NCBI GenBank assembly: GCA_903911145.1
Contig: CAIWCD010000035.1
Coordinates: forward strand, 62,001 to 126,000
Length of the DNA: 64,000 nt
Direction: 5' to 3'
From: an uncultured delta proteobacterium
Lineage (GTDB): Bacteria; Myxococcota; Myxococcia; Myxococcales; 40CM-4-68-19
Position 1 is the first letter of the stretch; each line of letters starts with the position of its first letter. Under the pieces are notes generated by a model. That model searched no databases. It saw nothing but the letters and a program-made list of their open reading frames with translations, and was not told the DNA's origin. Shown here in pieces: positions 13,600-39,000 of the stretch. Made by a program: the position numbers and the translations under genes.

Positions 13600-15278
13600 G
13601 CGACGAGACTCCCCGCATTCGGCGCGTCGCCGGCTCGCTCGTCGAGGTCTCCCCTCTGCGCGCCGCGCTCTACGAACTCGCGCTCGTCGGAGACCAGAAG
13701 ATGCTCGGCGAGGTGATCCGCCAGCGCGGCGATCTCGCGACACTTCAAGTCTACGAGGAGACGACCGGTCTCTGCGTGGGCGAGCCGGTGGAGGTGATGG
13801 GCGCGACGCTCACCGCGCAGCTCGGCCCCGGACTGCTCGGCTCCGTTCTCGATGGGATCGGCCGTCCTCTCGAGCGGGTCGCGGAGGCGACGGGCGACTT
13901 CATCGCTCCGGGCGCGCGTGCCGACACGCTCGCTGCGGATGCGCGATGGCACTTCACGGCCACGCGCAGCGCGGGTGAGCGCGTTTCGGGCGGCGACGTG
14001 CTCGGCACGATCGAGGAGCGGCCGGGAATGCTTCATCGCGTGCTGGTGCCGCCGCTGGTCAGCGGACTGCTCGCGACGCTCACGAGCGGCGAATTCACGG
14101 TGACCGATCCGATCGGCGCGCTCGCGGACGGCACGCCACTCTTCCTCTCGCATCGCTGGCCCGTGCGCACGGCGCGGCCAGTCCTGGAGCGGCTGGGAAG
14201 CTCGCGCCCGTTCGTCACCGGCCAGCGCGTCTTCGATCTCTTCTTCCCTGTCGCCGAGGGCGGCAACGCAATCGTCCCCGGTGGATTCGGGACCGGCAAG
14301 ACGATCATCGAGCAGAGCCTCGCGAAGTTCGCCGAGGCCGACATCGTCGTCTACGTGGGCTGCGGCGAGCGCGGCAACGAGATGACCGACGTGCTCACCG
14401 AGTTTCCGGCCCTCGTGGATCCGCGCACGGGAAGGCCCGTGATGGATCGCGCAGTGCTGATCGTGAACACCTCCAACATGCCGGTCGCGGCACGCGAGGC
14501 GTCCATCTATCTGGGCATCACCGTCGCCGAGTATTTCCGCGATCAAGGCAACCGCGTCGCGCTGATGATCGACTCGACCTCGCGCTGGGCCGAGGCGCTG
14601 CGCGAGATGGCGGCGCGCCTTCAAGAGATGCCGGGCGAGGAGGGCTACCCGACCTATCTGGCGAATCGGCTCGGCCAGTTCTTCGAGCGCTCGGGCCGCA
14701 GCAAGCTGCTCGGCTCTCCCGCGCGCGAAGGTGCCGTCACGATCATCGGCGCGATCTCCCCGCCCGGCGGCGACTTCTCCGAGCCGGTCACGCAGGCCGC
14801 TCTGCGCGTCGCGGGCGCGATGTGGGCGCTCGATGCGCAGCTCGCGCACCAGCGGCACTATCCGGCCGTCGATTGGGAGACGAGCTTTTCGCTCTACGCG
14901 GAGCAGGTTGCGCCCTGGTTCACCGAGCACGGAGGTGCGTGCTGGACGGCGCTGCGGCAGGAGCTGATGGCGCTCCTGCAGAAGGAGCGCGAGTTGCGCG
15001 ACATCGCGAGTCTCGTCGGGCCGGATGCGCTCGAGGATCACGATCATCTCGTCATCGAGGCCGCCGCGATCGTGCGCGAGGTCGTGCTCCGCCAGAACGC
15101 GTACCATCCGCACGACGCGATCTCCTCGCCTCAGAAGACGCACGCGCTCGCGGCCGCGGCGCTCGAGCTGCTGCACAAAGGCGAGGCGCAGCTCTCCGCC
15201 GGAAGTCCGTTCTCGTCGATCGATCTCGTCCCTGCTCGGCGTGCGCTGATGGCGATGCGCGATGGAGAAACTCCATGA
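13596..15278 (+). CDS. atpA: V/A-type ATPase catalytic subunit A
   Basis: A 560-residue catalytic subunit. The P-loop GGFGTGKT sits at about residues 229-236. The catalytic Glu lies in the family motif CGERGNEMTDVL, and the segment SRWAEALREMAARLQEMPGEEGYPTYLA follows with the ERSGR loop. The N-terminal beta-barrel and the V-type-specific insert before the P-loop (about residues 110-200) distinguish it from F-type beta. It binds and hydrolyses or synthesises ATP at the interface with subunit B. The start overlaps the subunit F stop (ATGA). Confidence 0.96.
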   Translation: MSDETPRIRRVAGSLVEVSPLRAALYELALVGDQKMLGEVIRQRGDLATLQVYEETTGLCVGEPVEVMGATLTAQLGPGLLGSVLDGIGRPLERVAEATGDFIAPGARADTLAADARWHFTATRSAGERVSGGDVLGTIEERPGMLHRVLVPPLVSGLLATLTSGEFTVTDPIGALADGTPLFLSHRWPVRTARPVLERLGSSRPFVTGQRVFDLFFPVAEGGNAIVPGGFGTGKTIIEQSLAKFAEADIVVYVGCGERGNEMTDVLTEFPALVDPRTGRPVMDRAVLIVNTSNMPVAAREASIYLGITVAEYFRDQGNRVALMIDSTSRWAEALREMAARLQEMPGEEGYPTYLANRLGQFFERSGRSKLLGSPAREGAVTIIGAISPPGGDFSEPVTQAALRVAGAMWALDAQLAHQRHYPAVDWETSFSLYAEQVAPWFTEHGGACWTALRQELMALLQKERELRDIASLVGPDALEDHDHLVIEAAAIVREVVLRQNAYHPHDAISSPQKTHALAAAALELLHKGEAQLSAGSPFSSIDLVPARRALMAMRDGETP

Positions 15279-21013: not shown

Positions 21014-21329
21014 CCGCACCGGTTGCACGGAAAACCCGATTTACCAGAAGCCCTCGTCGAGCCCCTGAACCAGGCTCGAGAGGGCTTTTGTGCTTCGTGT
21101 CAAGTTGTCGTCACTTGCGCCTACGCAGTGATTGCGCATCGGTGCGACCCAACGCGAAATCTGCGCTGAACGTCCGTTTTGCGCTGTCCGATTCATCCGA
21201 AAAAATAACGTAAAAATAAAATCTTATCTGACTGAGCTGCCGCTCGCTTGCTGGCATGGCTCCTGCTCAACGCGCAAGTGGAGTCATCTGCCAAGCCAGC
21301 TCGATTTTGACCATTTGAAGGAGACGGAC
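21014..21329 (+). other. Leader and promoter region of the collagen-like cytochrome
   Basis: A 316-base gap. After the terminator at 21048-21089 it contains an unusually AT-rich stretch at about 21195-21230, with runs of A and the sequence AATAAAATCTTATC, the most likely promoter zone for the downstream cytochrome. I looked for a GEMM-type cyclic-dinucleotide riboswitch, which regulates some Geobacter cytochromes, and did not see its conserved sequence. AAGGAG at 21318-21323 is the ribosome-binding site. Confidence 0.5.
21048..21089 (+). terminator. Rho-independent terminator after the OB-fold lipoprotein
   Basis: AAGCCCTC plus TCGAGCC (one bulged G between them) pairs with GGCTCGAGAGGGCTT across a nine-base loop. 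The descending arm runs into TTTT. This is the clearest intrinsic terminator in the window and separates the lipoprotein from the cytochrome transcript. Confidence 0.85.
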
Positions 21330-24300
21330 ATGTCCAACTTGTTTCTGAGAAGTAGTCTTCTAAGCGGGCGCGTCTCGTGCCTGGCTGTGGCAGTAGCGCT
21401 TGCGGGCAGCGTCGCCTGCGGAGGTGCGGGCACCACGGGAGCGACCGGACCGACCGGTGCAACGGGCCCGGCCGGAAATCCCGGCAATCCGGGTAACCCT
21501 GGTAACCAGGGCAACCCTGGTGCAAATGGCGCGACGGGCGCGAACGGCGCGACAGGCGCGACCGGCGAGAATGGCGCGACCGGCGCAAATGGCGCGACGG
21601 GCGCAAATGGCGCGACGGGCGCAAATGGCGCGACTGGCGCAAACGGCGCGACGGGGGCAAATGGTGCGACGGGCGCAAATGGCGCGACGGGCGCAGTTGG
21701 CGCGACGGGTGACGTCGGCGCGACGGGCGCGACAGGCACCAGCACTCCGGTGATCGGCACGGTCATCATCACTGTCGACGAGGGCACGGGCGCCAACGGC
21801 GGCGTCGCAGGCCCCCTCGCTGGCGTCAGCATTGTCGCGTTGACCACGACTGGCCAGTCCGTCGATGGCAGCATCGATCCTTCGATTGTCAGCACGGGCG
21901 TCACCTCGGCGAGCGGCACCGTGACGCTGATCCTCCCCTTCGGCATCTTCAACCTCACTCTCTCGAAGGCCGGCTTCACGTCGCCCGCGCCGATCCAGGT
22001 CGGCCTCGTCGCCTTCCAGACCGTGAACGTCGGCGTGACGATGAACGAGTCGTCGAGCTCCAAGCCGTCGCTCGCCGTCGTTGCTGCGGGCGACGACATC
22101 GGCTTCGGCAACACCGTGAACCTCACCGCGCATGGCTCGAGCCCGGTTGGCGACACGCTCACATACACGTGGGCCAACACCACGACCTACGCTCTCGGCA
22201 GGGTGACGGGCAGCGGGACCGCCGGCACGATCACGACGCCGACGCTTGCCGCCGCCACTGCCCCAGAGGGCACCACGGCTGCCGGCAACTGGATCTCCGG
22301 CTACACGATCCCCGCCCAGTTTGGCGTGCTGCCGATCATGAGCGACACGAGCGGAACCGTGACGGCCACGGTCACCGCGAATGATGGCTACGGGCAGTCG
22401 ACGAGCGCCAGCGTCACGGTCAGCGCTGCGTCGTTCCAGAACGGCACTCGCAACAGTGCAGTCGGAACACGCGTGTTCCTGAATGCAGGTGCGCCGCTTG
22501 TCGACGGCGGTGCCACCTGGGCCCTCACCAACAATGCGGGCTCGAGCGCGTCGGTTGACAGCATCACGTCGCAATACCCCTCATTCATTCCGGACAAGGC
22601 CGGCGCCTACACGGCGACGTTGGGGAGCAACAGCATCACCGTCTATGCGGGAACCTGGATCGGCGCGATCCAGGCCACCGGCTCGACCGTGACGAAGACC
22701 CAGAACGGCACCGTCCCGTTCATCCCTCTCGCCCAGTGCGCGAACTGCCACCAGAGCGGATTCGCGATCGATGAGTTCACGGGCTGGATGGGAACCAAGC
22801 ACGCTGTGCACCTGACGTACGCGATGGATGGCGTGACCGGGTTCAGCTCGGGTCAGAGCTGCCTGAAGTGCCACACGGTCGGCTACGATCCAGGCAACAC
22901 CAACACGCTCGCGGGTGGCTTCAGCCAGATGGCCGCCGATGCGGGTTGGACCTATCCGACGACGATCTCCGCGAGCAACTGGTCCAATGTTCCGGCTGGC
23001 GTTGCACAGCTCGCGAACATCCAGTGCGAGAACTGCCACGGCCCGCAGGGCAACGGCGTGAGCGGCTACTACTCGGCCGCGCACACGATGACCGACGTCG
23101 ATGGTGGATTGGGGCAGGCGAAGATCACCGAGCCCTTCCAGTCGCCGCGCATCTCCTACGCTGCAGAAGATTGCGGCGTCTGCCACGCGGCAGGAACCAG
23201 CCACCACCACTACTCGGAGTGGGCGACGGCCAACCCGGACGACGGCGCTGGTCACTTGAACAGCCTGACGGGGCGCGCAGTCAACGGGAATGCGCTCGCC
23301 GCGGGCTGCGCCCGGTGCCACTCGGCCCAAGGCTTCACCGAGTACGTCCCGAACCTCCTCTCGGGCAACGTCGGCACTCTGCAGGCGAACCAGCTCGCTG
23401 TGGGGCAGATCAGCCTGAACAACATCCAGCCGCAGACCTGCCAAGCCTGCCACGATCCGCACAACACCGCAGTGGATCCGGTCACGGGCGAGGACGAGTT
23501 CCAGCTCCGCATCTGGAACAACATCCCGCTTCTTCCGTCCGGGTTCGGCGTCAGCGGAATGGGCGCTGGCGCGATCTGCGCCTCGTGCCACAACTCCGGC
23601 GCGACCAGTTCGGCGGGCGCATACGAGACTGTGGCCGAGAACACCGCGCTCATCCCCGCGATGGCGGCGGTCGGGCTCGACTCGGGCGTGACCTTCACCT
23701 CGACGGCGTATCTGCACGAGGACAGCGACGCGATCGGGTCGAACCCGGCGAATCCGAAGCTCGGCGCGACCTACATGAAGCTCGGGACGAACTTCATCCT
23801 GCAGCCTGACGCCGGCACGCTGGTGACGCTGAGCTCGCCGAGCATGACGAGCCAGACCGACGTCTTCGAGGGACACAACGCGTACTTCCTCTCCGACTCG
23901 ACGCCGGTGATCTCGCCGCACAGCGCGGTCAAGGACACCTGCGTCGGTTGCCACATGACGAACAACCCGGGCACGTACACGAGCCACGGCGCGTCGGCGA
24001 CAGCCACGCACCTGTTCTTCATCACCGACGCGGACACGCCGGGCTACTGCAGCAAGTGCCATGCGAGCGGGACGTCGAACGTCGATGGAGCGAGCCTCCA
24101 GGCCTCGACCACGGCCGGCCTCAACAAGATCCTCACCAATCTTGGCAATGCGGTTGTTGCACGCCTCGACGACGGAGTGTCTGACGGCGGTGTTCCTGCG
24201 AGCTACACGGTTCCTACTGGCTACGGCCTCTGGCAGGACACGGGCACGATCAGAATCATGTCCGGAAACCTGACCGACGCCACACCGGGCTGCGTGAAGG

Positions 24301-24716
24301 CGACGGGCACGGCGTGCGGCCAGAAGAGCAAGGCCGAAGTCAAGATCCTCACCGACCCGCTGATGAACCCGGTGGGCTCGGCGGTCGCAGGGACTGGCAG
24401 CGTGACGCTCACCTTCGCGGTCTCGGCATCCGCGCCGATCACCGTGAAGATGGCCGACAACGCGACGTACACGTACAACAGCGGGACAGCGACATTCTCC
24501 GTCTCGTACGCGAACATTCTCGACGGCTCGCTCAACCCGATGTTTGCCCAGAACGGCAACTTCATCAAAGCGATCTGGAACTACCAGCTGATCAACACGG
24601 ACAAGAGCAAGGGCGTCCACAACCCGCCGTTCGTCTCCGCGGTTCTCTCCGCGACGGCGAATCCGTGGGGCAACCCGAACGCCAGCCCGCCGCAGCCGGG
24701 CGGCCTCTGGTACTAG
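21330..24716 (+). CDS. Collagen-like nine-heme c-type cytochrome, probable surface lipoprotein
   Basis: A 1128-residue exported protein. The signal segment ends in [10 protein letters not shown] (weak lipobox, Cys30). Residues about 31-135 are an uninterrupted Gly-X-Y collagen-like tract, mostly GAT, GAN and GNP triplets, encoded by an 18-bp-phased DNA repeat. A carboxypeptidase-regulatory-like or Ig-like region follows ([17 protein letters not shown] and later). Nine CXXCH heme sites lie between about residues 465 and 915: CANCH, CLKCH, CENCH, CGVCH, CARCH, CQACH, CASCH, CVGCH and CSKCH. The start is ATG at 21330 after AAGGAG. Family members work as outer-surface electron carriers, and the collagen stalk suggests display away from the membrane. 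A terminator follows the gene. Confidence 0.88.
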
Positions 24717-24995: not shown

Positions 24996-25373
24996 ATGAG
25001 CACGATCATGGTTGTCGACGACTCGCAGATGATCCGCCAGCAGTTCTCCAGGATGCTGACTGCCGGCGGCCACACCGTGGTCGAGGCTGCCGATGGCGTC
25101 GCGGCGCTCGAGAAGCTGCGCGCGGACAGCTCGATCCGGCTCATTCTCCTCGATGTCAACATGCCGAAGATGAGCGGTCTCGAACTGCTGCAGAGTCTGC
25201 ACGAGGATCCTGTGCTCACGACTCCAGCTGTCTTGATGATCACCACCGAAGTGCAGGCGGAGTTGGTGCAGCAGGCGAAGGGGCTCGGCGCGAAGGGCTG
25301 GCTGGTCAAACCGGTCAAGGCTGAAGCGCTGTTGGCAGCTGTGAACTCACTGCTCGGATCGGACGCACGATGA
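24996..25373 (+). CDS. Stand-alone CheY-like response regulator
   Basis: A 125-residue single receiver domain. The acidic pair is in VVDDSQMIR (Asp8, Asp9), the phospho-acceptor is Asp53 in LILLDVNMPKMSG, the conserved Thr is in VLMITTE, and the Lys is in WLVKPVK. There is no output domain, so it signals by protein contact as CheY does. The start is ATG at 24996 with CGGAG upstream. The stop overlaps the next gene's ATG (ATGA), so it is co-translated with the degenerate-receiver/CheX-like protein, a likely phosphatase or binding partner. It sits between two large cytochrome loci and may regulate them or motility. The input kinase is not in the window. Confidence 0.88.
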   Translation: MSTIMVVDDSQMIRQQFSRMLTAGGHTVVEAADGVAALEKLRADSSIRLILLDVNMPKMSGLELLQSLHEDPVLTTPAVLMITTEVQAELVQQAKGLGAKGWLVKPVKAEALLAAVNSLLGSDAR

Positions 25374-26203
25374 AAGTCCTGGTCGCAGATGGCGTCGCTT
25401 CACAGCGGGACGCTACGGTCAAACTGCTCTCGGCAGCGGGGCACAAGGTCGACACGGCCAACACGGTTGCGGAGACGGAGGCCGCGCTCGCGAAGAACCG
25501 GTACGACGTGTTCATCACCGAGGCCGATTTCCCGGAGCGTCCGGCGGAAGGGCAGAGCGTGGTGAAGCGGTTCCGCGCGGCCGAGAAGGATGGGCATCTC
25601 TACATCCTGATGCTCTCGGCGCAGATGACGCCGATGCGAATTGTGCAGGCTTTCGACGTGGGCTGCGACGACGTTGCGCGCAAGCCGATCTCGGCGGAGG
25701 AGCTGCTCGCACGTGCGGGCGCGAGCGATCGCATCCGCAAGTGGGCCGGGTTCCTCTTCAAGGAAGAGGGAAATGTCGATTTTGCGCAGAAGGCGAACCT
25801 CGCCAACATGCGCGCCTGGAAAGAGGCGCCGCACGCGACCGCGACGATTCTCGCCGGGATGTTCAATCTGAATTCGAAGCCGATCCCGCTGCCGCCGAAG
25901 GGCCCGATGACCGGCGCAGAGCTGTCGCTCGTCCTTTCCGACGATGCCGGAGAGGTGACGCTCGCGGTCGGTTGCGACGCGGCCTCGCTCAAGGAGCTTG
26001 CCGAACTTTCTCTGGGCACGCCGCAGCCTTCGATGACCGCGCTTGGCGACATGATGAAGGAGATTGCGAATACGGTCGGCGGCGCGCTCAAGCGGCTCTC
26101 CGATGCGGACCGGATCCCGATGACCATCGGTCTGCCGAAGGTCTGCGAGACGCTCGAACTCAAGAGCGAGCAGGCTGGCAGCATCAGCTCCTATGCAATC
26201 TAG
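25370..26203 (+). CDS. Degenerate receiver plus CheX-like phosphatase domain, N-terminal part of an amber-interrupted gene
   Basis: 277 residues before TAG. Residues 1-120 are a receiver fold in which the phospho-acceptor Asp is replaced by Glu51 (FITEADFPE in place of the usual LLDxxMP) and the first acidic residue by Ala (LVADG). It therefore probably cannot be phosphorylated and may mimic the active state. Residues about 175-270 resemble CheX/CheC chemotaxis phosphatases, with the DxxxExxN-type motif in DMMKEIANTVGGAL. That domain could dephosphorylate the upstream CheY-like protein, to which it is coupled by ATGA. The frame continues open for 74 codons after the TAG, with a recognisable domain (next entry), so the gene is probably cut by a nonsense codon. 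Confidence 0.72.
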   Translation: MKVLVADGVASQRDATVKLLSAAGHKVDTANTVAETEAALAKNRYDVFITEADFPERPAEGQSVVKRFRAAEKDGHLYILMLSAQMTPMRIVQAFDVGCDDVARKPISAEELLARAGASDRIRKWAGFLFKEEGNVDFAQKANLANMRAWKEAPHATATILAGMFNLNSKPIPLPPKGPMTGAELSLVLSDDAGEVTLAVGCDAASLKELAELSLGTPQPSMTALGDMMKEIANTVGGALKRLSDADRIPMTIGLPKVCETLELKSEQAGSISSYAI

Positions 26204-26428
26204 GTCGGCGACTCGATCGTGTTGAGCTTCGGGACGTCGCTGCGCTCGCGCACGGCCGAGTGGGTCTCCATCAAGGACCTCCAGGAAAACATGGTGGTCG
26301 TGCAGCCCGTGCTCAACAACAACGGGCTGACGCTGGTGGCTGCTGGCTCTCGCCTCACCGTGTCTGGCATCGAGAAGCTGGGCCGCTTCATGGCGGGCGA
26401 GACTCTCGTCCAGATCGTGCGCGTCTAA
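26204..26428 (+). pseudogene. In-frame C-terminal continuation of the CheX-like gene after TAG
   Basis: This is the same reading frame as the preceding gene, beginning right after the TAG at 26201-26203 and ending in TAA at 26426-26428. The 74 residues include VSIKDLQENMVVVQPVLNNNGLTLVAAGSRLTVSGIEKLGRF. This matches the small domain (DLxxGMVxxxxV...LLxxGxxLT...I..L) that ends many receiver and HD-GYP signalling proteins. No start codon here has a ribosome-binding site; a GTG at 26219 is the best candidate. Either the full protein of about 352 residues is made by read-through, or the strain carries a nonsense mutation, or the base call is wrong. A CAG (Gln) to TAG change would explain it. Confidence 0.6.
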
Positions 26429-26663: not shown

Positions 26664-29600
26664 CTAGCGCGCCTTGTGGACGAGCGAGACTTCCTCGACA
26701 GCGCCGGCCGCGTGGCAGACCGAGCAGGACTCGACGTTGTTCGGCGCCATCGCGTCAAAGTGCGCGCCGGCCGCGGTCGACGTGTGGCAGCCGCTGCATG
26801 CTGCCCTCCACGTGCGCACGGGCATCACCTGCTGCGTCGGGTGGTTGCGATTGGTCGGCGCTTGCCAGACGGTGCTCGTCCCGTGGCAGGTCGCACACGA
26901 ACCCGCTCCGTTCGGGGTCACAGGGAAGGTATCCGCGTGGAGGTTGTGGATCAGCGTGCGGAAGTTTCCCGTCTCCGACGACACTGTCGTGCCCGCAGGC
27001 GGCGGCATCGCGTTGTAGGACGAAAGCGAGAGGCCCGCGACGCCGTGGCAGAGCAGGCAGGTGCTCGCATCGCGCCGCGATCCGCTGTGGAACGAGAGGT
27101 CTTCGTGGCAGCTTTGGCAGTTGTTGGTCGTGTCGATCAACGCGTAGGGCGTGAGTGTCGTGGCCGAGCCGAAGAGGAAGTCCTGCTTCGCCGAGACCGC
27201 CGTCGCGCGATAGGCCTGATACTCGCCCGCGCTCGCATAAGGCACGATCTGGTAGCCCCAGATCGCGGCCGTGTACGTCCCGCTCGCGTAGCTCTTGCCC
27301 GCCCAGTTGCCCCATGTCTCGTCGAGGTTCGGGTTGTTGTGCGGAGGCGGCGCGTAGACGGCCTGGAGCGTGTCGCCCGGCTTGCGATACCAGCCGAAGC
27401 GGCCGTTGGTCCGGTAGCTCATGACGAACGAGTTGGTCGAGCCGGCCGTCAGCGTGATCGTGCCCGTCCCTGAGTTGAGCGTGTAGTCGACGCCCTCCTG
27501 GCGGAACGTCAGCGTGACCTTTTTGACGGACGCGCCGCTCGAGTGCGTGAAGCGCAGTGGCGTGGTCGGCCAGACGCGATTCGCCGCGCTGTCGACAAGG
27601 CCGACCTGCACATACTCGGCACTGGAGAGGCCGTCGTCGATGACCAGGTAGTCACTCGTCGCGAACGGCGTGGGAGACCCGACGCTTGCCACGGGAAGGA
27701 ACGCGCCTTCGAACGCGACAGCGGCCGTCAGCGTGGTCGAGATGCCGCCGAGGGCCGTGCGCTCATAGAGCGATTGATAGCTGTACCAGACCGGCGTGTT
27801 CGCGGCCGTCAGCACCTGGCCCGCGTTGCCGTTGCCATCTCCGAGATATTCGAACGGGAGATCCATCGGCACATTCAGCGAGTAGGTCGGGGCCGGTGCC
27901 GTGTAGTTGTAGTAGATGCGATCGTTCGCGACGAAAGCGGCGCGGCCCGCAGCCACGGCGAAGAGCACCGGGTTCGCGACGGCTCCCTTGAAGACAGTGA
28001 CGTAGATCTTGTTGCCGCCCACGAACGGGGTCGTGCCGACCGTGACGCTGAACGAGATCGTCCCGTCGTTCGAGGTGAACCAGCTCGTCGCCGAAACCGT
28101 GTTCGGGAGCAGGCCCGAGCCCATCGAGCCGGAGACGCTGCCCGCAACGGTGTAGCTCGTCGAATCGTTGAACGTGACGCTGATGGTCTGCGGCACAGCG
28201 TCGGCCGTCAGGTAGATGCTCGCGATCGAGGAGCCCGTCGGGTTGCTGCTGATGGGCGCCGCGAGCGCAGCTCCTCCGAGTGGGCCGGTCTGGTGGCCCG
28301 TGACAGTGAATGCCGTCGCGCTGGTGAACTGCACGACCAGCGGTTCGGTCACGGTCGCGCCGATCGGGACGACGCGGCTCATGATGCCCTTGTTGGTCGT
28401 GGTCCCGGACGCAACGCGGCCCGCGAAGTCGTAGGGGCTAAGCCAGATGTTGCTTGTGGTTGCGTAGGGGAACGGCACTTGGCGATTCGACGTGGGGCCG
28501 ACGACCATGCTGGTGATCGAATCGAGCGACGTGATCGGGATGTTGTTCGCCGCGCCGTCAGTGATCGAGAACGAGAGGGTCGGCTCGTCTCCCGACTTGA
28601 ACGCGCCGTTCGGACCCGTGCCGCCCGTGAGCGCCGAGATGTTGAAGTTCACGCTCGGCGTAAACGCGGAGTTGTTGAGCGGGTGCGTGTGCGCGCCGCG
28701 CACGTCGAGCGTCTGGTCGAATCCGCGGTGGCAGTAGATGCAGCCATCGTCATTCGCCTGAGGAGGCATGCGCTGGCCGTTCTTGACGTAGGGCTTGGTG
28801 AAGTCCACGTCGTCGTGGCACGAGCCGCACGCCATACGGGAAGGCTGCGTGAAGTAGTCACCCTGCGCTGGCGCCTTGACTGGGAACGAGGAGCTGCCAG
28901 TGCCATGGCAGCGGAAGCAGGCGATGACGCCCTGGCGGATGGCGTTGTCGGCGGTCTGCTGGGCAGACGTGAGCTTCGAGAAGCCGGAGTTGCGCGGCAT
29001 GGCGATCTGGAAGCTCGGCAGCACGGGGAACTGGACGGCCGAGAAGTTCTCGGCAGTGACGCCGCCGACGACAAAGGGCGTCTTTGTCGACGCGTAGTTG
29101 CGCGAGCCGTCCGGATTGGTGGTCACGCCGTTCACCGAGGGAAGGTGAGGTCCGTTGTGCAGCTTGTGGATCAGGCTGCGCAGCTCGATGGTCACCGGCG
29201 TCGCGTCGTTCGTGTCGGTGCTATTGGCGTCCTCCGCGCCCGCCGTGTGGCAGGTCGCGCAGAGCGTGGTGTTCCGGTAGAGGCCGTCGTGCGCGCGCAG
29301 GCTTGCGTGGCAGCCGTTGCAGTTCGCCGTCGTCACGACTTCTCGTGCCTCGAGCGTAGTCGCGTGGCCGAAGAGGAAGTCGAGCGTATCCGCGCCGACG
29401 TCCGGATAGGTCGTCTCCGCCACGGTGTAGTTGCGGTGGGCCTGCATCGCGACCGTGTACGTGCCGGCCTGAAGCGGTCCGGTCAGCTCACCGAGCGAGA
29501 ACTTCGCCGTGTTCCAGAGCGGAACGCCGTAGTTCGCAGGGAGCGGCGCTGCAAACGTGTACGTGTAGCTCCCGTCGCTGTTGAGATGCGACGCAGTCGC

Positions 29601-30527
29601 TACGTCGGTGAACGACTGCTGATCGCGCGCCGTCGGCAGGATGTGCTGGTAATTCGTCGTCGGGCCAGCGATCCAGATCTCTGCGCCGTCGAGCTCGCTC
29701 AAGTCGAGCGGGATGCCTGCGTTCGTCGTGATGCTGAACTTCACCGAGACGAGATCTCCCGGAGCGAACGTGCCGTCGCCGTTGCCCGCGCCGGTGATGT
29801 TGGCGATGTGAAGGACGACCCCTGGCAACGCCGTGTACGCATCGAGGACCGTTCCGATTGGCGGCGCGATGGTGACCGCGGTGCCGTCGGTGCAGCTGAC
29901 CGTCTTGGTTCCGTTCGAGTTGGCCACGACCGAGCAGGACGTTCCATCTGCAACTGTGACGGAGGTGCCGTTGGTGCAGGAGATGGTCTTGGTGCCATCC
30001 CCGTTGTCCTTCACCGAGCAGGAAGCGCCGTCGACGCCGTTGGTGCCGTTCGAGACATTGACCGACGTGCCATCGGCGCAGGTGATCGTCGAGCTGCCAC
30101 CATCGGTCGCGGTCACCGAGCAGGAGGTGCCGTTGGTGACCGTCACGCTCGAGCCGTCGGGGCAGGTGATGGTCTTGGTTCCGTTCCCGTTGTCCTTGAC
30201 CGAGCAGGTGCCGCCGTTGGTGCCGTTGGTTCCGTTGCTGATCGTGACCGACGTGCCGTCCGTGCAGGAGAGCGTCGCGGTTCCGTCGGCGTTCTTCTGC
30301 ACCGAGCAGGAGGCCGCGGAGCCGTTCGCTCCATCGTGCACCGTCACCGAAGAGCCGTCCGCGCACGCGATTGTCTCGGTCCCGTCGCCGTTATCCTTCA
30401 CGGTGCAAGCACCGCCCGACGCGCCCGGGTCGCCCTTCGGTCCACGGCAGCCTGCGCTGAAGGCCATCCCTGCTGCGAGAAGAGCGACACAGGCCACTCT
30501 GAGAGTCACGTTCTGATTGCCGGTCAT
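26664..30527 (-). CDS. OmcA/MtrC-like decaheme c-type cytochrome, surface lipoprotein
   Basis: A 1287-residue lipoprotein (AGMAFSAGCRG lipobox) and the last gene of the electron-transfer operon. A short collagen-like GPKGDPG stretch is followed by six tandem units of about 30 residues (about 40-220), each with two Cys and the pattern CSVKDNGDGTKTISC then DGTSVTV. The remainder has the OmcA/MtrC-type layout: two groups of five heme sites separated by Ig-like beta domains. The sites are CNGCH, CATCH, CFRCH, CGSCH and CIYCH, then CQSCH, CLLCH, CATCH, CSGCH and CSVCH. In Shewanella this family carries electrons from the porin-cytochrome conduit to minerals at the cell surface. OmcA and MtrC are about 670-735 residues, so this protein is nearly twice that length. 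The start is ATG at 30527 with AAGG upstream. Confidence 0.9.
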   Translation of the reverse strand: MTGNQNVTLRVACVALLAAGMAFSAGCRGPKGDPGASGGACTVKDNGDGTETIACADGSSVTVHDGANGSAASCSVQKNADGTATLSCTDGTSVTISNGTNGTNGGTCSVKDNGNGTKTITCPDGSSVTVTNGTSCSVTATDGGSSTITCADGTSVNVSNGTNGVDGASCSVKDNGDGTKTISCTNGTSVTVADGTSCSVVANSNGTKTVSCTDGTAVTIAPPIGTVLDAYTALPGVVLHIANITGAGNGDGTFAPGDLVSVKFSITTNAGIPLDLSELDGAEIWIAGPTTNYQHILPTARDQQSFTDVATASHLNSDGSYTYTFAAPLPANYGVPLWNTAKFSLGELTGPLQAGTYTVAMQAHRNYTVAETTYPDVGADTLDFLFGHATTLEAREVVTTANCNGCHASLRAHDGLYRNTTLCATCHTAGAEDANSTDTNDATPVTIELRSLIHKLHNGPHLPSVNGVTTNPDGSRNYASTKTPFVVGGVTAENFSAVQFPVLPSFQIAMPRNSGFSKLTSAQQTADNAIRQGVIACFRCHGTGSSSFPVKAPAQGDYFTQPSRMACGSCHDDVDFTKPYVKNGQRMPPQANDDGCIYCHRGFDQTLDVRGAHTHPLNNSAFTPSVNFNISALTGGTGPNGAFKSGDEPTLSFSITDGAANNIPITSLDSITSMVVGPTSNRQVPFPYATTSNIWLSPYDFAGRVASGTTTNKGIMSRVVPIGATVTEPLVVQFTSATAFTVTGHQTGPLGGAALAAPISSNPTGSSIASIYLTADAVPQTISVTFNDSTSYTVAGSVSGSMGSGLLPNTVSATSWFTSNDGTISFSVTVGTTPFVGGNKIYVTVFKGAVANPVLFAVAAGRAAFVANDRIYYNYTAPAPTYSLNVPMDLPFEYLGDGNGNAGQVLTAANTPVWYSYQSLYERTALGGISTTLTAAVAFEGAFLPVASVGSPTPFATSDYLVIDDGLSSAEYVQVGLVDSAANRVWPTTPLRFTHSSGASVKKVTLTFRQEGVDYTLNSGTGTITLTAGSTNSFVMSYRTNGRFGWYRKPGDTLQAVYAPPPHNNPNLDETWGNWAGKSYASGTYTAAIWGYQIVPYASAGEYQAYRATAVSAKQDFLFGSATTLTPYALIDTTNNCQSCHEDLSFHSGSRRDASTCLLCHGVAGLSLSSYNAMPPPAGTTVSSETGNFRTLIHNLHADTFPVTPNGAGSCATCHGTSTVWQAPTNRNHPTQQVMPVRTWRAACSGCHTSTAAGAHFDAMAPNNVESCSVCHAAGAVEEVSLVHKAR

Positions 30528-30624
30528 GGCGCGTTACCTTGTCTGAAGAAGAGTTCCGACACGGGGATGGTGAAGCGTCGTCCGAGTGTGGTGATCGGGG
30601 AGGTGCTCATGGCGCGCGGTGCGA

Positions 30625-33573
30625 TCACCACTCCTTCTGCGAGGTGTGGCAGGCCGTCGTGCAGTTCTTCGTCGGGTTGACTGTCCAGGTGCCGCCGGTG
30701 CGGAAGTTGACGTCTTTGACGCCGTTGGCGTGCAGCGCCTTGTTCGCGGCGATGATCGCGGTGCCCGTCGAGTTGGTTTCGCCGTTGTGGCAGTAGGTGC
30801 AGTCGCTGCCCATGAACGCGTGGCCGGGCTGCGCGGCCGGATGCTGCCCCGTCGTGGGCGCGGTCGCGTGGCAGGTGCCGCAAGCGGCCTGGGTTCCGTC
30901 AACGCGAGTCCACTTCGGCGTGTTGCCCGCGTTTCCGCCAGGGAAGTCGCCATGGCAGTACGAGGTGGAGCAGCTCGCCCCATTTGCGTTCCACGCGGGA
31001 GCTGCGCCGCCGGTCTGCGCGAGCGGTCCCCACGTCAGAGTGGCAGGCGGCGGGACGACGTGGCCGGCGCTGAAGATGTCGGTCGGAACGACGTGGCACT
31101 CGCTGCACGCGACCGGACTCGAGATGTTCGCGCTGCCCTCGACGTGCGAGGTGTGCGCGCCGACTCCCACGGTCTGCGTCGAGAAGCCATGCGATAGGCT
31201 CGTGGGGGGCGCGCCGGTGAGGTTGTCGCTGCCTCCGTGGCAGAACGTGCAGTTTGTCCTCCAGGCCGTGCCGCCCTTGTGGCAGCTGTCGCAGCTGATT
31301 CCAGTGCCGCCTCCGCTGAGGTCCGCACCGTGGCAGCGCTGGCACCATGCGATGCCCTTCGCCGACACCGAGTCGCCGTGGAAGTTTCCGCTGCCAGGCG
31401 TCGTCCAGATGTCCGCGGCGGGGTGCACGTCCTGGACTTCGATGCTGCCGTTGATGTGCAGGCCACCCGTGATGTTGATGGTCCCGTCGTGGTTGACCGT
31501 GCCGGGATGGCAACCGTCGCAAGCCGTCAACTGGAGATGGGGCGCTGGAGGAGGCGCACCGTGGCAGGTGCCGCAGGCGTCTTGTGTGCCATCGACCTGC
31601 GTCCAGATCGGCGTCTTGTTGGTGCCGCCCGCGATGGTTGCGCCGTGGCAGTAGACGTTCGAGCAGGTCGCGCTGTCGCTGTTGAACGCCGGCGCAAGAC
31701 CGCTCGTGGTCGCGAGCGTGCCGAAGTTGAGCGGAGCCGGTCCCACGACGATGTGGCCGGGGTCGGTGATTGAGCTCGGGACGATGTGACACTCGTTGCA
31801 CGCGATCGCCGCGCGCACCTTCCCGTCCGTGACGTGCGTTTGATGGGCGCCAACGCGAACGTCTGTCGTGGCCGTCGCGCCGGTCGTCGCCTTCGGCGGT
31901 GCGTTGTTGGCCGCGCTGCCGTGGCAACTCGAGCAGTTCACGCTCACTTCTGCGATCCCATTGATGTGATGCCCGCCCGCGATGTCGATGTCCCCATTCG
32001 GGAGCACAGTCATCGGGTGGCACGCGTTGCAGTCTGCGCGCTGCGGGTGAGGGAACGGCGGCGGATCACCGTGGCAGGTCCCGCACGCGGCCTGCGTGTG
32101 GTCGACCTTGGTCCACTGCGGAGTCTTGAGAGTGCCGCCCGGCGCCTGTGTCCCGTGGCAATACACGTTCGAGCAGGTCGCGCTGTCGTGGTCCCACGTT
32201 GGCGCCAGTCCGCCTGTCGCGGCGAGCGAGCCGAACACGACTGGCGCAGGTCCGCTGACGATGTGCCCGGGATCCGTGATTGACGTCGGCAGGACGTGGC
32301 ACTCAGTGCAGGCGAGCGCGCTGTGGAGCGGGCCGGCGGTGACGTGGGTCTGGTGTGCGCCGACGCGAACATCGCTGGTCGCGGTCGCGCCGGTGGTCGC
32401 CTGCGGAGGCGCATTGTTGGCGCCGCTACCGTGGCAACTCGAGCAGGTGATGCTGACCTCCTGGATGCCGTTGATGTGATGCCCTCCCGCGACGTCGATC
32501 GTGCCGTCTGCCCGGACCGTCTGGGGATGGCAGGCGGTGCAGTCCGTGCGCTGCGGGTGCGGGAACGGAGGCGGATTCCCATGGCAGGTCCCGCAGGCGG
32601 CCTGCGTGTTGTCGACCTTGGTCCACTGCGGGGTCTTGAGACTGCCGCCTGGTGCCTGCGCTCCGTGGCAGTAGACGTTCGAGCAGGTCGCGCTGGTGCG
32701 GTCCCAGACGGGCGTCAAGCCGCTGGTCGCTGCGAGTGCGCCGAAGATGACCGGAGCGGGGCCATCGATGATGTGTCCAGGGGAATCCACGCTCGCCGGC
32801 AGGAGGTGGCAGTCCGTGCACGCGAGGGCCTTGCGCAGCGCACTGTCCTGCATGTGGCTCTGGTGCGCCCCGACCGTGATGTCGGTCGTGGCTGTCGCGC
32901 CGTGTGCGGAGACGGGCGGGGCGTTGTTCGTCGTGCTGCCGTGGCAGGTCGAGCAGGAGAGGGTGACCACCTCGAGTTGGCCATTGATGTGGTGGCCGCC
33001 AGCGACGTCGATGGTGCCGTCGGGCTTGACCGTCAGAGGGTGGCAGGTGTTGCAATCGGTGCGCGGCGGATGCGGGATCGGCGGCGGATTTCCATGGCAG
33101 GTCCCGCACGCGGCCTGCGTGCCGTCGACCTTGGTCCAGACAGGATTCTTGTTCGTTCCGCCGCTCAGAGTTGCGCCGTGGCAGTAGCTCGCCGAGCAGC
33201 TCAGCGACTGTCCGCTCCAGACGGGAGTGGTGCCGCCGGCCGACGCGAGCGATCCGAAGATGACGTTGATGACCCCATTGTTGTGCCCGGGGTCGGTGAC
33301 TTCGCGCGGAACCGGATGGCACTCGCTGCAGGCGATCGCCTGGCGCAGCGACGAGTCGCGGACGTGGCTCTGGTGCGCGCCCACCGCGGGATCGGTGGTT
33401 GCGGTCGCGCCGTCTACGGAGTGCGGAGGGGCGTTATTTTCGGTGGAGCCGTGGCACGAATGGCAGGTGACCTCCGCGGGGAGGCCGGTGCCGAGCGGTT
33501 GCGTCTGGTTGCACGCGGCGACGCCGAGCGCGATGGCCAGAACGGCGATCCTGGTGGCGGTCGAGTCAGTCAT
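30625..33573 (-). CDS. 28-heme c-type cytochrome of the CX4CH/CXXCH repeat family, lipoprotein
   Basis: A 982-residue lipoprotein (ALGVAACNQ). I count 28 heme-attachment motifs: 22 CXXCH, five CX4CH (one CSASYCH, three CSNVYCH, one CSTSYCH) and one final CXXXCH (CTTACH). The middle is a tandem array of a five-heme module of about 170 residues (about 510 bp). Each module has CSECHP-type, CSNVYCHG, CGTCHG, CNACHP and CSSCHG sites separated by conserved GGHHINGxxEV and VGAHQTHV segments. This matches the Geobacter CxxxxCH...CXXCH domain family (TIGR01904). It starts four bases after the 11-heme gene. As a lipoprotein beside a beta barrel and a decaheme cytochrome it is likely an outer-surface electron wire, though the periplasm cannot be excluded. 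Confidence 0.88.
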   Translation of the reverse strand: MTDSTATRIAVLAIALGVAACNQTQPLGTGLPAEVTCHSCHGSTENNAPPHSVDGATATTDPAVGAHQSHVRDSSLRQAIACSECHPVPREVTDPGHNNGVINVIFGSLASAGGTTPVWSGQSLSCSASYCHGATLSGGTNKNPVWTKVDGTQAACGTCHGNPPPIPHPPRTDCNTCHPLTVKPDGTIDVAGGHHINGQLEVVTLSCSTCHGSTTNNAPPVSAHGATATTDITVGAHQSHMQDSALRKALACTDCHLLPASVDSPGHIIDGPAPVIFGALAATSGLTPVWDRTSATCSNVYCHGAQAPGGSLKTPQWTKVDNTQAACGTCHGNPPPFPHPQRTDCTACHPQTVRADGTIDVAGGHHINGIQEVSITCSSCHGSGANNAPPQATTGATATSDVRVGAHQTHVTAGPLHSALACTECHVLPTSITDPGHIVSGPAPVVFGSLAATGGLAPTWDHDSATCSNVYCHGTQAPGGTLKTPQWTKVDHTQAACGTCHGDPPPFPHPQRADCNACHPMTVLPNGDIDIAGGHHINGIAEVSVNCSSCHGSAANNAPPKATTGATATTDVRVGAHQTHVTDGKVRAAIACNECHIVPSSITDPGHIVVGPAPLNFGTLATTSGLAPAFNSDSATCSNVYCHGATIAGGTNKTPIWTQVDGTQDACGTCHGAPPPAPHLQLTACDGCHPGTVNHDGTINITGGLHINGSIEVQDVHPAADIWTTPGSGNFHGDSVSAKGIAWCQRCHGADLSGGGTGISCDSCHKGGTAWRTNCTFCHGGSDNLTGAPPTSLSHGFSTQTVGVGAHTSHVEGSANISSPVACSECHVVPTDIFSAGHVVPPPATLTWGPLAQTGGAAPAWNANGASCSTSYCHGDFPGGNAGNTPKWTRVDGTQAACGTCHATAPTTGQHPAAQPGHAFMGSDCTYCHNGETNSTGTAIIAANKALHANGVKDVNFRTGGTWTVNPTKNCTTACHTSQKEW

Positions 33574-33577
33574 CGCG

Positions 33578-34405
33578 TCAAGGCCTCAGGAGCGTGTTGT
33601 GGCAGGCCGCGCACCAGTTCGGCTGGTGGCAGGCACTGCACGACTCGCTCACGCGGGCTCCGGCAGCGAGCCCATGAATGTGCAGCCAAGGCCCGGCGTG
33701 GTTCGCCGGCTCGGTGGTCTGGTGGCAACGAACGCAGGTGCTCGTCTCGTGACAGGTCTTGCAGCGATCGCGATCCCACTGTGCCGCGATGCCGTGCGCC
33801 TGCTGGCGCCAGAGGCCGGTATGGTCGCGTGGCGCCAACTGATCGTGGCACTCAGTGCAGGAGCTCTTCGAGTGGCACTGGCGGCAGTCCTGCCCGTGCG
33901 CGCCGTCGGATACGTTCCAGGCCGCCTGCGCGCCGTGGGTCGATCGCCAATCGGGACCGTGGCTCGCGGGCCGGAGCACCTTGCGGTTTTCTCCGTGGCA
34001 GCGCGCGCAGGCCGTCGTCGAGACGCCAACCTTCTTCTCCTCGTGGCACGAGAAGCAGCGCGCGTTGGTGAGGACCGGTTCGCCCTCCGTGATCTTGTCG
34101 TCAGGGATCGACGAGTGGCAGGTCGTGCAGGCGAACTTCTCTGCGTGCTCGCGATGGGGGAAGACGACATCGAGCTTGCGAATCTTCGGCAGCGGCCTGT
34201 GCTCGGGGGCGCCGTTGTCGTGGCACTCGATGCAGCCATTCTCGAGCTTGAGCTGCGGCACGCCCGGACCCGATGCGGCGTCGTGGCAGGCCGTGCACTC
34301 GAGACCCAGCCCGAGGTGGTGCTGGTGGGAAAAATCGACCGGCCCGCGCGGCGTGGGGCCGGCAGCGACGAGAAGCGCAACGATCGCGAGCTGTGCGGTG
34401 ACCAT
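33578..34405 (-). CDS. Compact 11-heme periplasmic c-type cytochrome
   Basis: A 275-residue protein. A short signal segment (AIVALLVAAGPTPRG) is followed by eleven CXXCH sites: CTACH, CIECH, CTTCH, CFSCH, CARCH, CRQCH, CTECH, CKTCH, CVRCH, CSACH and CAACH. One heme per about 25 residues is a very dense packing, as in MtrA/OmaB-type cytochromes that fill a porin. It starts two bases after the beta-barrel stop, so barrel and cytochrome are translationally coupled. That is what one expects for the barrel and its buried heme wire in a porin-cytochrome conduit. There is no lipobox. The ATG at 34405 is chosen because of this coupling and the signal peptide. Confidence 0.87.
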   Translation of the reverse strand: MVTAQLAIVALLVAAGPTPRGPVDFSHQHHLGLGLECTACHDAASGPGVPQLKLENGCIECHDNGAPEHRPLPKIRKLDVVFPHREHAEKFACTTCHSSIPDDKITEGEPVLTNARCFSCHEEKKVGVSTTACARCHGENRKVLRPASHGPDWRSTHGAQAAWNVSDGAHGQDCRQCHSKSSCTECHDQLAPRDHTGLWRQQAHGIAAQWDRDRCKTCHETSTCVRCHQTTEPANHAGPWLHIHGLAAGARVSESCSACHQPNWCAACHNTLLRP

Positions 34406-34407
34406 GG

Positions 34408-36012
34408 TCAGAACGATTGGGACAGCGAGGCGGTGAAGGTCTGCAGAACGCGGTCGAAGACTTCGTATCCGTAGCGGGCGCGGACGGTGAGCCAGCGTGC
34501 GAACGTGTAGCTCGCGTCGCCGTAGTAGCCGCGGACGTTCGCGAGCTCCTCGGGCTGCTGGAAATAGACGTAGCGCCAGCGCTGATAGTACGTGCCGGCT
34601 TCGAGGCGCACGTATTTGCGGGTCCATCCGATGTTGCCGCTCGCGGTGAACGTCCCGTTGTTGCCGGCGAAGCCATCCTGGTCGTACTCGACGTTCGCCG
34701 ACACGTAGAAGTTGGTGCCACCGAGCTGGGTCGCAGTCGCGAGGAGATAAGCGCGCAGGAAGTTGCGATTGAAGAGCGACTCGTCTGCGTTGATGAGCTG
34801 CCGCGCCTGGCCGCCGACGTGGGCGGTAAAGACGCCGGCCGACGTGTCGAATCCCTTCCATGCATCGAGATTGATCTTGAGGTGCGGGCGGCTCTGACCG
34901 AGCGTCAGGTAGAACGGGTTGTCCATCTCATCGAGCTCGTTGAGCGTCGCGGGCTGCGCGTCGAGCTTGAGTTCGACGCCGACCATGCGCTCCGTCGACT
35001 CGACCCGCCCCGCGACGCCGAGGGCCTCAAGCGAACTGCCGATGCCGCGCGCCCAGAGCCGGGCCTTCGCCCAGCTGCCTGCGCGCCACTGCGCAGAGAT
35101 GCCGTAGGTGTTGTCGGTGACGAGCTGGATTCCAGAGGCGGTCGCTGCGGGAACGCCGTCGCGGAGCAACCGATAGTCCACTTCGACTTTCAGATTCTCG
35201 GCGACGCGGATGTCAGCACCTGCGCTGCCGATCCAATCTTGAAAGACCTTCGGATCGATCTCGAAGAAGTGAACCGAACGCCCGCCGAACGCGAAGAGCT
35301 GGATGCGTGGTGTTCCTGCGTTGACCTCGAGGGCTGCGCCGTCGAACGTCGCAGGCGCGCCATGCTCTGCGTCCTGTCGACCGACGCGCAGCAGGCGCAG
35401 CGGCCCGTCAGGTCGGTACTCGACGTTGAGTCGGTAGATGTCGAGCCAGAGCGGCGAACTGGTCGAGCCGTGGATCGAGTTGAAGCTGTTGATGGAGTTC
35501 GCGGCTGGTTCACCGCTCGCGTCCCACCAGAGTCCGAGACCGACAGTGAGGAGGAGCTTGTCGTCAGCGCTGGTGCGCGCGGCGTCGATCGCGATGCGGG
35601 CGAGTGCCTCATTCTGGTCAGGTAGAGAGGAGACGCGCTCGCGAAACTCCTCCCGCGAGAAGAAGCTGTAGCTCGGCCGCGCCACCGACGACGGCGCGGT
35701 CAATGGAGGGGCAACTGCGGACTGCGGATTCGCTGGCGCTGCGGGCTGGTTGGCCGACGGCGGCGCGCTCGGCACAGGAGCAGGCGCAGCGCTCGACTGC
35801 GCTGCTTGCGGTGTCGTGGACTGCGTGCCGGCATCCGCACCGATCGACGCGGATGCCGGATCCTTCGGGCTCTCTTGCGCCATGGCAACGCTGGAGGCCA
35901 GCGCGGACAAGAGAGCGGCGATGCGTGCCGCCCTCTGCCAACGCAGGTTCCAGCGCCCCGGTCTGGCGGCGGGGACAGGCGACGAAGCTGTCTCAAGAGG
36001 CGTGGTCGTCAT
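34408..36012 (-). CDS. Outer-membrane beta-barrel protein, putative porin of the electron conduit
   Basis: A 534-residue protein. A basic N-terminus and hydrophobic segment (IAALLSALASSVAMAQ) form the signal peptide, and an Ala/Pro/Ser/Gln-rich linker spans about residues 50-110. The rest is rich in alternating aromatic and polar residues (LWLDIYRLNVEYRPDG, YQRWRYVYF, YGYEVF) and ends in the C-terminal Phe (SLSQSF) used for BAM-mediated insertion. It is not recognisably MtrB/PioB by sequence, so the porin role is inferred from its place between a membrane-anchored 9-heme cytochrome and a periplasmic 11-heme cytochrome. It begins 34 bases after the 9-heme gene. A general alginate- or Opr-like porin is the alternative. 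Confidence 0.72.
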   Translation of the reverse strand: MTTTPLETASSPVPAARPGRWNLRWQRAARIAALLSALASSVAMAQESPKDPASASIGADAGTQSTTPQAAQSSAAPAPVPSAPPSANQPAAPANPQSAVAPPLTAPSSVARPSYSFFSREEFRERVSSLPDQNEALARIAIDAARTSADDKLLLTVGLGLWWDASGEPAANSINSFNSIHGSTSSPLWLDIYRLNVEYRPDGPLRLLRVGRQDAEHGAPATFDGAALEVNAGTPRIQLFAFGGRSVHFFEIDPKVFQDWIGSAGADIRVAENLKVEVDYRLLRDGVPAATASGIQLVTDNTYGISAQWRAGSWAKARLWARGIGSSLEALGVAGRVESTERMVGVELKLDAQPATLNELDEMDNPFYLTLGQSRPHLKINLDAWKGFDTSAGVFTAHVGGQARQLINADESLFNRNFLRAYLLATATQLGGTNFYVSANVEYDQDGFAGNNGTFTASGNIGWTRKYVRLEAGTYYQRWRYVYFQQPEELANVRGYYGDASYTFARWLTVRARYGYEVFDRVLQTFTASLSQSF

Positions 36013-36046
36013 GGCGATTGTGACCTGGGGACTGCCCGCGTGGTGC

Positions 36047-37606
36047 TCATGGCTTGTCCGAGTCCTTCCGGCTTCGCTCGAGCTCGCGCAGCTTGAGACC
36101 GATGCCCGCGACGAGCAGCATCATGAAGACGATCGCGCCCACCAGTCCTCGACGACGGAACTGGAACTCGTTGTGCGCTTCGCCGATTTCCTGCCGCGAC
36201 TTCTGCAGCGCTTCGGTGCCGGGCTTCGCGGCCGCGTCGAAGGTGCTCATGCTGAACGAGTGCACCTTGGCCTTGGACTGCGTCACCGCCTCGTCGAGAT
36301 CCGAGAGCGAGCGCGTCACGGGCTCGATGTCGAGACCCATCTCCGCGAGGTGCTCGACTTCTCCCGAGACCTCTTCGCGGCCTGCGATCATCTCGTCGAG
36401 CGTCGTGCGGAAGTGCTTGGCGGTCTCATTGCACTTCGGGTTGTCCTTCGAGTTCTCCGCGTGGCACTTGCCGCAGAGCGTGTCGGTGGTGTTGCCGATG
36501 AGCGACACGGTCGGCTTCTGGATGTCGTGATGGCCGTGGCACTGGCCGCACTCGGGCCACTTGTGCTCCTCGAACGCCTTCTTGTGGCGGCTCGAGTCGA
36601 AGAGCATTCCGTTCTGCGCGTGGCATCGGCGGCAGACTTGCGAGACCGACGCGACCTCTGGCGGCTGCGCGGCGTGGCTGCCGTGGCACCCGGTGCAAGA
36701 CGGCGCACCGAGATCCCCCTTCACCAGCAGCGCCTGGCCGTGAACGCTCTTCTTGTACTTCTCGACCTGATCGGTCGGCAGCGGCGCGCCCGCGGACGTG
36801 AGGTAGCCCTTCATATGCTCGGGATCGGCGTGGCACTTGCCGCAGGTCTCCGGGACTTTTTGAGGATGCACCGTCGAGTTGCGGCTCTTCGCCGAGCGGA
36901 TCCCGTGCACGCTGTGGCAGCTCACGCACTGGGCCGCGTTGTTGTCGTGCTTCTCGAGAAGCAGCTCGCCGTGCTTGCTGGTCTTGTACTTGGCGAGCTG
37001 GTCGGTCGGCAGCGTCGGGTTGAAGCCGCGCATGAACTGGGTGTCGGAGTGGCAGCGCGCGCAGAACTCGGGGATCCAGCTGCGGTCCGTGTGCCGAACC
37101 TCCTCGGCGGGCCAGCGCGTCGCGATCTCCTTCGGCATCACGTCATCGCTCGGCTTGCCGCCGTGGCATCCCGCGCAGGAGAGGCCCGCGCGGAAGTGCA
37201 CGTCGCTCACCAGCTCGCGCAGATTGAGCAGCGGATTCGATCCCGCGGCTTTCGGGTCGGGAGAGAAGAGCGCCTTCGGCTTCTGGTTCATCGGATCGGC
37301 GTGGCAGAGCACGCAGTTGTCCGTCGCGATCAGGTCGAGTACCTGCGGCTGCACGTCGAGGGAGAGCAGGGCGGCGAGCTCTTCCGGACTTCCGAGGATC
37401 ATCGAATCGGCCGCGTCGGAGAGGAGCTTGATCGTCCGCTCGGGCAGCGCGGCGAGCGTGTCGCGCTGCTTCTGCGTGAGGATGGGCGTTCCGTCCTTAT
37501 GCTTGCCGTCGGCGAGCGCGGCGAGCGGCTTGGGCAGCGCGGCCGCGGGAGCCGGCGCAGCTGCTGCCGTCTGGGCGAACAAGGCAGCGAGAAGGAGGCC
37601 GATCAT
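36047..37606 (-). CDS. Membrane-anchored nine-heme c-type cytochrome
   Basis: A 519-residue cytochrome. It has a signal peptide (LLLAALFAQTAAAA) and nine CXXCH sites between about residues 90 and 380 (CVLCH, CAGCH, CARCH, CVSCH, CGKCH, CTGCH, CRRCH, CGQCH, CGKCH), several followed by His-rich cytochrome c3-like spacing such as KYKTSKHGE. A helical region (ISADLDEAVTQSKAK-like) follows. One C-terminal transmembrane helix, GLVGAIVFMMLLVAGIGLKL, would hold it in the inner membrane facing the periplasm. The start overlaps the cytochrome b stop (ATGA). In place of cytochrome c1 it probably accepts electrons from the Rieske protein and hands them to periplasmic or outer-membrane cytochromes. Confidence 0.88.
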   Translation of the reverse strand: MIGLLLAALFAQTAAAAPAPAAALPKPLAALADGKHKDGTPILTQKQRDTLAALPERTIKLLSDAADSMILGSPEELAALLSLDVQPQVLDLIATDNCVLCHADPMNQKPKALFSPDPKAAGSNPLLNLRELVSDVHFRAGLSCAGCHGGKPSDDVMPKEIATRWPAEEVRHTDRSWIPEFCARCHSDTQFMRGFNPTLPTDQLAKYKTSKHGELLLEKHDNNAAQCVSCHSVHGIRSAKSRNSTVHPQKVPETCGKCHADPEHMKGYLTSAGAPLPTDQVEKYKKSVHGQALLVKGDLGAPSCTGCHGSHAAQPPEVASVSQVCRRCHAQNGMLFDSSRHKKAFEEHKWPECGQCHGHHDIQKPTVSLIGNTTDTLCGKCHAENSKDNPKCNETAKHFRTTLDEMIAGREEVSGEVEHLAEMGLDIEPVTRSLSDLDEAVTQSKAKVHSFSMSTFDAAAKPGTEALQKSRQEIGEAHNEFQFRRRGLVGAIVFMMLLVAGIGLKLRELERSRKDSDKP

Positions 37607-39000
37607 GACCGCACCTCCGGCACTGCTTGCCCTCGAGAGCGAAGCACCAGCAGTCCGATCACCAGCGCGACGAGCGCAATCCCTCCCGCCGCGAGGTACT
37701 GCATTCCGAGCAGGCCGTGCAGAGCGATCTGGAGCGCGGTTGCCGCGGTGAACAGGAAGTAGCGCTGGTGCAGGACAGTCGCGCGCAGCGCGGTCGCGAC
37801 GCTCGCAATGCCGAGCCACCAGAATGCGCAGATGCGCGCGGTCAACACCGGATCGGGGAGCTTGTCGCCGATGCCTCCTCCGCCGATATCCCAGGCTTTG
37901 AACAGCAGGAAGCCGAGGAAGATGAGCGTGGCCGCGCCGATATCGGTGAAGCCCGGAGAAGCCTCGTCGCGCTGGGCTCGCCGATCGAGCCAGGGCATCA
38001 TCGCCCACGCCCCCATCAGCAATCCAACGAGCAGCACCGCGGCCTGAGAGCCTTCCATGCCGAGGAAGTGGGCCGGGAACTCCTTGAGGAGTTGATATAT
38101 CCAGAGGAAGTACCATTCCGGTTTAATCCCCGGATATGCCGGCGCGAGTGGATTGGCCTTCTTGCCGAGTTCCCATTCAATGCCCGGGATATGCGGCCCA
38201 TATGGAAGGAATACGGCCAGCGACGCGAGCACGATGAGGCACATCAGCCAGAGCTGCAGATCGCGCAGCGCGAAGTCGGGGAAGAAACGCATTCCCTTCG
38301 GCGCCGTCTTATGTCCCTGCGGAGGCGCCATTCCCTGTCGCTGGATCACGAGCAGGTGGGCCGTGACCAGGCCCACCATGACGAGCGGGAGAATGACGAC
38401 GTGAAGTCCGAAGAAGCGGTGGAGGGTATTGATGCTGACATCGGTTCCGCCGCGCAGAACCTGGAGGAGAAAGTCGCCGATACCAGGAACGGCTTTCATT
38501 GAATCGGTGCCGACGGCGGTGGCGAAGAAGGCCAGCTCGTTCCACGGCAATAGATATCCGGAGAATCCGAATCCCAGCGCGAGCGAGAGAAGAATAAAGC
38601 CGGTGACCCAGGTCATCTCACGCGGAGGCCGATAGGCCTTCAGCATCATCGTGCTGAACATATGCGTGACCAATGAGATGATCATTAAGTGCGCGCTCCA
38701 GCAATGCATCGAGCGCACAAGCCAACCGAATGGAACCTTCGTTGTAATGAATCGAATCGACTCGTATGAGGTGCTCTCGCCCGCCTGATAGAACAGCAGA
38801 AGAAGCGAGCCGGTGCAGACCTGCATCATGAAGAAGAAGAGAGTCGCGCCGCCGAGGTAGTACCAGAACATCGAGTGCACGCCGACGGGCACTTCCTTGT
38901 GCTTCATGAACTCGACGAGCGGCGTGAGGCCATAGCGCCGGTCGAGCCAGCCGAAGACGCCTCCGCCCTCTTTGGCGATATTCGAAGTATCGACGCTCAT
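37603..39000 (-). CDS. Cytochrome b of a Rieske/cytochrome b quinol-oxidising complex
   Basis: A 465-residue polytopic protein with a full-length cytochrome b. The N-terminal four-helix domain has heme-ligand histidines in VRSMHCWSAHLMIISLVTHMF and in NTLHRFFGLHVVILP. The quinol-site motif is IKPEWYFLW, and several further C-terminal helices follow. It oxidises quinol and splits electrons between heme b and the Rieske centre. The start overlaps the Rieske stop and the stop overlaps the 9-heme start, so the three are one coupled unit. A cytochrome c1 gene is absent and its place is taken by the multiheme protein. Confidence 0.92.
   Translation of the reverse strand: MSVDTSNIAKEGGGVFGWLDRRYGLTPLVEFMKHKEVPVGVHSMFWYYLGGATLFFFMMQVCTGSLLLLFYQAGESTSYESIRFITTKVPFGWLVRSMHCWSAHLMIISLVTHMFSTMMLKAYRPPREMTWVTGFILLSLALGFGFSGYLLPWNELAFFATAVGTDSMKAVPGIGDFLLQVLRGGTDVSINTLHRFFGLHVVILPLVMVGLVTAHLLVIQRQGMAPPQGHKTAPKGMRFFPDFALRDLQLWLMCLIVLASLAVFLPYGPHIPGIEWELGKKANPLAPAYPGIKPEWYFLWIYQLLKEFPAHFLGMEGSQAAVLLVGLLMGAWAMMPWLDRRAQRDEASPGFTDIGAATLIFLGFLLFKAWDIGGGGIGDKLPDPVLTARICAFWWLGIASVATALRATVLHQRYFLFTAATALQIALHGLLGMQYLAAGGIALVALVIGLLVLRSRGQAVPEVRS

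Follow-up and report, generated by a model that had tools for sequence, protein, structure and literature searches.

Bacterial pseudogenes that arise by nonsense mutation are conserved genes interrupted by one in-frame stop and intact in all other respects, and the locus described here shares this arrangement; no difference is apparent, apart from the present case appearing very recent and without further decay. An in-frame TAG followed by conserved downstream sequence is also the hallmark that the locus shares with amber-reassigned and amber-suppressing genomes. In contrast to such genomes, however, RF1 is kept here, TAG ends more genes than TGA or TAA does, in-frame TAG is not in excess across the genome, and no suppressor tRNA was found among the typed tRNAs. 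With regard to its product, the gene resembles proteins of the CheX/CheC/FliY phosphatase fold (PF13690) in possessing the ExxN motif and a profile match that spans most of the domain, whereas it differs from them in being fused to a probable pseudo-receiver and to a C-terminal domain and in passing the profile cut-off only barely. The features under discussion lie within the window, i.e., the whole stretch of 64,000 nucleotides analysed, as follows.

24996 to 25373, + strand: CheY-like single-domain response regulator gene (PF00072, E=6.3e-26; sequence).
25370 to 26203, + strand: truncated reading frame with a probable pseudo-receiver and most of a CheX-like domain, ending at TAG (PF00072, E=1.9e-12; PF13690 CheX, E=3e-6, part before the TAG).
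26201 to 26203, + strand: premature in-frame TAG, codon 278 (sequence; sense codon here in five orthologues).
26204 to 26428, + strand: remainder after the TAG, with the end of the CheX-like region and a conserved C-terminal domain, 74 codons, TAA (full-length orthologue alignment).
56984 to 56986, + strand: second in-frame TAG, in a collagen-repeat/BNR-like repeat lipoprotein gene (translation, sequence; Pfam Collagen/BNR/Sortilin).

The interrupted gene starts at the ATG at 25370, in an ATGA overlap with the upstream response regulator gene, its probable operon partner. From there, a single frame runs through 277 codons to the TAG at 26201-26203 and through a further 74 sense codons, including those for EWVSIKDLQENMVVVQPVLNNNGLTLVAAGSR, to a TAA at 26426-26428; the 74 open codons after the TAG had been described in the sequence-only reading. 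Openness of the tail is by itself weak evidence for coding, and 14% of shuffled tails also stay open. A codon model that had been trained on this genome and was run as a six-frame competition assigned the tail +39.9 bits in the frame of the gene versus 8.9 in the best other frame; the corresponding values upstream of the TAG were 32.0 and 8.8. Since the tail is coding and no orthologue is truncated or has a stop in this column, a real gene is broken by the TAG at 26201, close to where its CheX-like region ends. The claim that a CheX-like signalling gene continues past the TAG into a recognisable C-terminal domain is thus borne out by the coding score and by the alignment to five orthologues.

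These orthologues were obtained by searching 195 genomes of the same phylum with a two-sequence profile. All five (in genomes G048, G182, G185, G186, and G189) run to full length uninterrupted by a stop, and they align with the query over the receiver, the CheX-like region, and the same C-terminal domain, matching the tail along its whole length. The column of the TAG is occupied in them by S, V, S, D, and V, a sense codon in five full-length proteins being the configuration that marks the stop as premature and that would fit a nonsense pseudogene. Residues invariant in all six proteins number 21, six of which (M308, N316, G319, G326, L329, and L337) follow the TAG. The BLOSUM62 score per residue against the orthologues is 0.67-1.26 after the TAG and 0.60-1.10 in the CheX part preceding it, and the tail is free of any additional stop or frameshift. 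Because its similarity is about that of the CheX part and no further lesion is present, the tail appears little decayed, with decay barely begun. At positions invariant in the five orthologues, the query retains 6 of 15 residues in the tail, compared with 10 of 14 across the CheX part, which could reflect some divergence of the tail or an older stop. Identity to the orthologues amounts to 20-25% over the whole protein; all five stem from other families, none belonging to the same genus or family, and scans of genome contigs returned neither close relatives nor an intact allele. As a by-product, the search delineated a small family of pseudo-receiver/CheX-like/C-terminal-domain proteins scattered over the phylum. 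In the same genome, a distant paralogue of the CheX-like protein (L085, G000:C11:6887-7033) adjoins receiver-domain genes and is devoid of the C-terminal tail.

The CheX-like assignment combines the PF13690 match of the part before the TAG, which at 28.0 bits lies barely above the curated cut-off of 27, with the ExxN motif (E231 and N234), which is invariant in the orthologues and located upstream of the TAG. The receiver domain carries Glu at the usual phospho-Asp position (DVFITE) and is therefore probably a pseudo-receiver. Weak similarity links the tail to NosR-type response regulators, whose C-terminal end it matches (NF053512, E=9.5e-5). Among the matches listed in a PDB sequence search, the receiver domain alone was covered, and a single-sequence structure prediction of the protein (mean pLDDT 37) was left out of the argument.

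Based on this organization, we propose that a single nonsense change made codon 278 of a two-domain-plus-tail signalling gene a TAG, at which RF1 would end translation. The resulting product would keep the pseudo-receiver and, of the CheX-like domain, the core that bears ExxN, and would lose the end of the CheX-like region together with the C-terminal domain, so that the sequenced strain or population probably carries either a pseudogene or an allele of impaired function. An isolated and recent nonsense change with a strain-level effect of this kind is the likely explanation of the TAG at 26201; we infer a genuine, recent base change and an impaired product.

The use of TAG as a terminator was assessed in a genome sample of 819 kb, comprising the window and 40 further stretches. 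TAG ends 258 of 578 confidently called genes (44.6%) and is the commonest stop, followed by TGA (242) and TAA (78); for instance, it terminates a gene directly before another, which we take from their translations to be rplK and rplA, and likewise the gene before a presumed tpiA. The reading frames downstream of genes stay open for similar lengths whichever stop is used, with medians of 48 codons for TAG, 48 for TGA, and 46 for TAA. RF1 is present, prfA scoring over its cut-off, and the idea that TAG is avoided as a terminator or that RF1 has been lost is hence rejected. TAG is very unlikely to be read as an amino acid in this genome. The amber suppressor tRNA that had been suggested as a check did not emerge: no CUA anticodon occurs among the tRNAs typed by ARAGORN, the genome containing 45 tRNA matches, of which three partial ones (two on C3 and one at the end of C28) are untyped. 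ARAGORN also placed a tRNA-Ser(GGA) at window positions 14149-14231, inside the strongly coding ORF 13518-15278; the Rfam tRNA matches do not include it, a normal tRNA-Ser(GGA) is encoded elsewhere in the genome, and the call is probably a false positive.

An excess of in-frame TAG across the genome, anticipated in the sequence-only reading, was found neither in the 819-kb sample nor in two families followed genome-wide. An initial codon-score scan missed the known site at 26201, and the six-frame competition model was used instead; when TAGs were planted in called genes, the resulting internal-stop filter detected 61% of them, and in the 819 kb it yielded 12 candidates, among which 26201 alone is clearly not a gene junction. 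Judging by sequence, the other candidates look like same-frame gene junctions. Similarly, the ten top-scoring in-frame stops of the sample are all TAG and, except for 26201, were set aside as apparent same-frame tandem genes with starts of their own, such as rplK/rplA. Genome-wide, no internal TAG and a single TGA occur among the 92 receiver and 46 ABC-ATPase matches. This TGA lies in a weak receiver-domain match (G000:C28:73022-73297) that adjoins another receiver and may represent either a second pseudogene or a degenerate domain.

The second amber site, at 56984, interrupts a lipoprotein-like gene (window 56255-57925) that encodes collagen triple-helix repeats and, after them, BNR/Sortilin-like GDIWTS repeats. 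Sibling repeats read GD-I/L-W-T-S and have TGG (Trp) where 56984 has TAG, which points to a changed Trp codon; Trp is absent from the 26201 column in the five orthologues, and the ancestral codons of the two sites probably differ. Both ambers are real in-frame stops that read ATC-TAG, as had been remarked, but the shared ATC is unremarkable, given that ATCTAG occurs at an observed/expected ratio of 1.14 in the 819-kb sample and that the two ancestral codons probably differ. ATC makes up 8,044 of 229,380 codons (3.5%), and two other sampled genes end in ATC-TAG after domains that are complete by Pfam. Dcm-type (CCWGG) deamination or a modification-linked error would have strongly depleted CCWGG and enriched CTAGG; it was rejected, with CCAGG at 0.88 of expectation (1,649 copies) and CTAGG at 0.96, while in-frame ATC-CAG (166) and ATC-TGG (111) are both still common. 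A systematic CCAGG to CTAGG change is thus excluded at genome scale, and at 26201 it could be a single event only; an ancestral CAG there is possible yet unsupported, the orthologues carrying S, V, or D. The proposed shared sequence context consequently finds no backing, and neither does a common explanation for the two TAGs, which lie 31 kb apart: since 56984 derives from TGG and the orthologues have no Trp at 26201, no shared cause is needed, and the proposed explanation involves no mechanistic link.

Because TAG normally ends nearly half of the sampled genes, the stop at 26201 is best regarded as a one-off truncation or a sequence error. The latter, an assembly or base-calling error that put one wrong base into the draft of a gene still intact in the cell, is rather unlikely but carries more weight than any other alternative to a nonsense change; the draft state of the genome (53 contigs), the intact tail, and the presence of two such stops within one window are consistent with it, whereas the scarcity of internal stops elsewhere and the lack of motif-linked conversion in the above counts of CTAGG, ATCTAG, and CCAGG argue against it, a random single error excepted. 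It is improbable that the gene was naturally shortened or split, leaving a functional 277-residue protein and a tail that is dispensable or separately translated from a restart. The receiver core and the ExxN motif do lie wholly upstream of the TAG, and a GTG and an ATG, the latter preceded by AGGA, follow it by 6 and 30 codons, respectively; however, each of the five orthologues is a full-length fusion, a start at the ATG would fall inside the conserved domain of the tail, and no evident ribosome-binding site precedes the GTG.

Production of the full protein through amber suppression, TAG reassignment, or programmed readthrough would accord with the intact and conserved tail, but it is very improbable in a genome in which TAG is the commonest terminator, RF1 is present, internal TAG is not in excess, and a CUA anticodon was not found among the typed tRNAs. 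Low-level programmed readthrough generating short and long forms of the CheX-like regulator is more improbable still. The outcome is therefore mostly negative, in that the suggested genetic-code or DNA-modification anomaly is removed from this genome, and it flags the signalling gene at 25370 as one whose truncated annotation is in doubt.

The operon is flanked by multiheme cytochrome-like frames (window 21132-24716 and 26664-38116), five of which contain 9, 10, 22, 11, and 9 CXXCH motifs. Two of the cytochrome-like frames match MtrC/MtrF domains II/IV, one of them also with collagen-like repeats. Not all of the frames listed need be real genes; the cluster is possibly an extracellular electron transfer locus.
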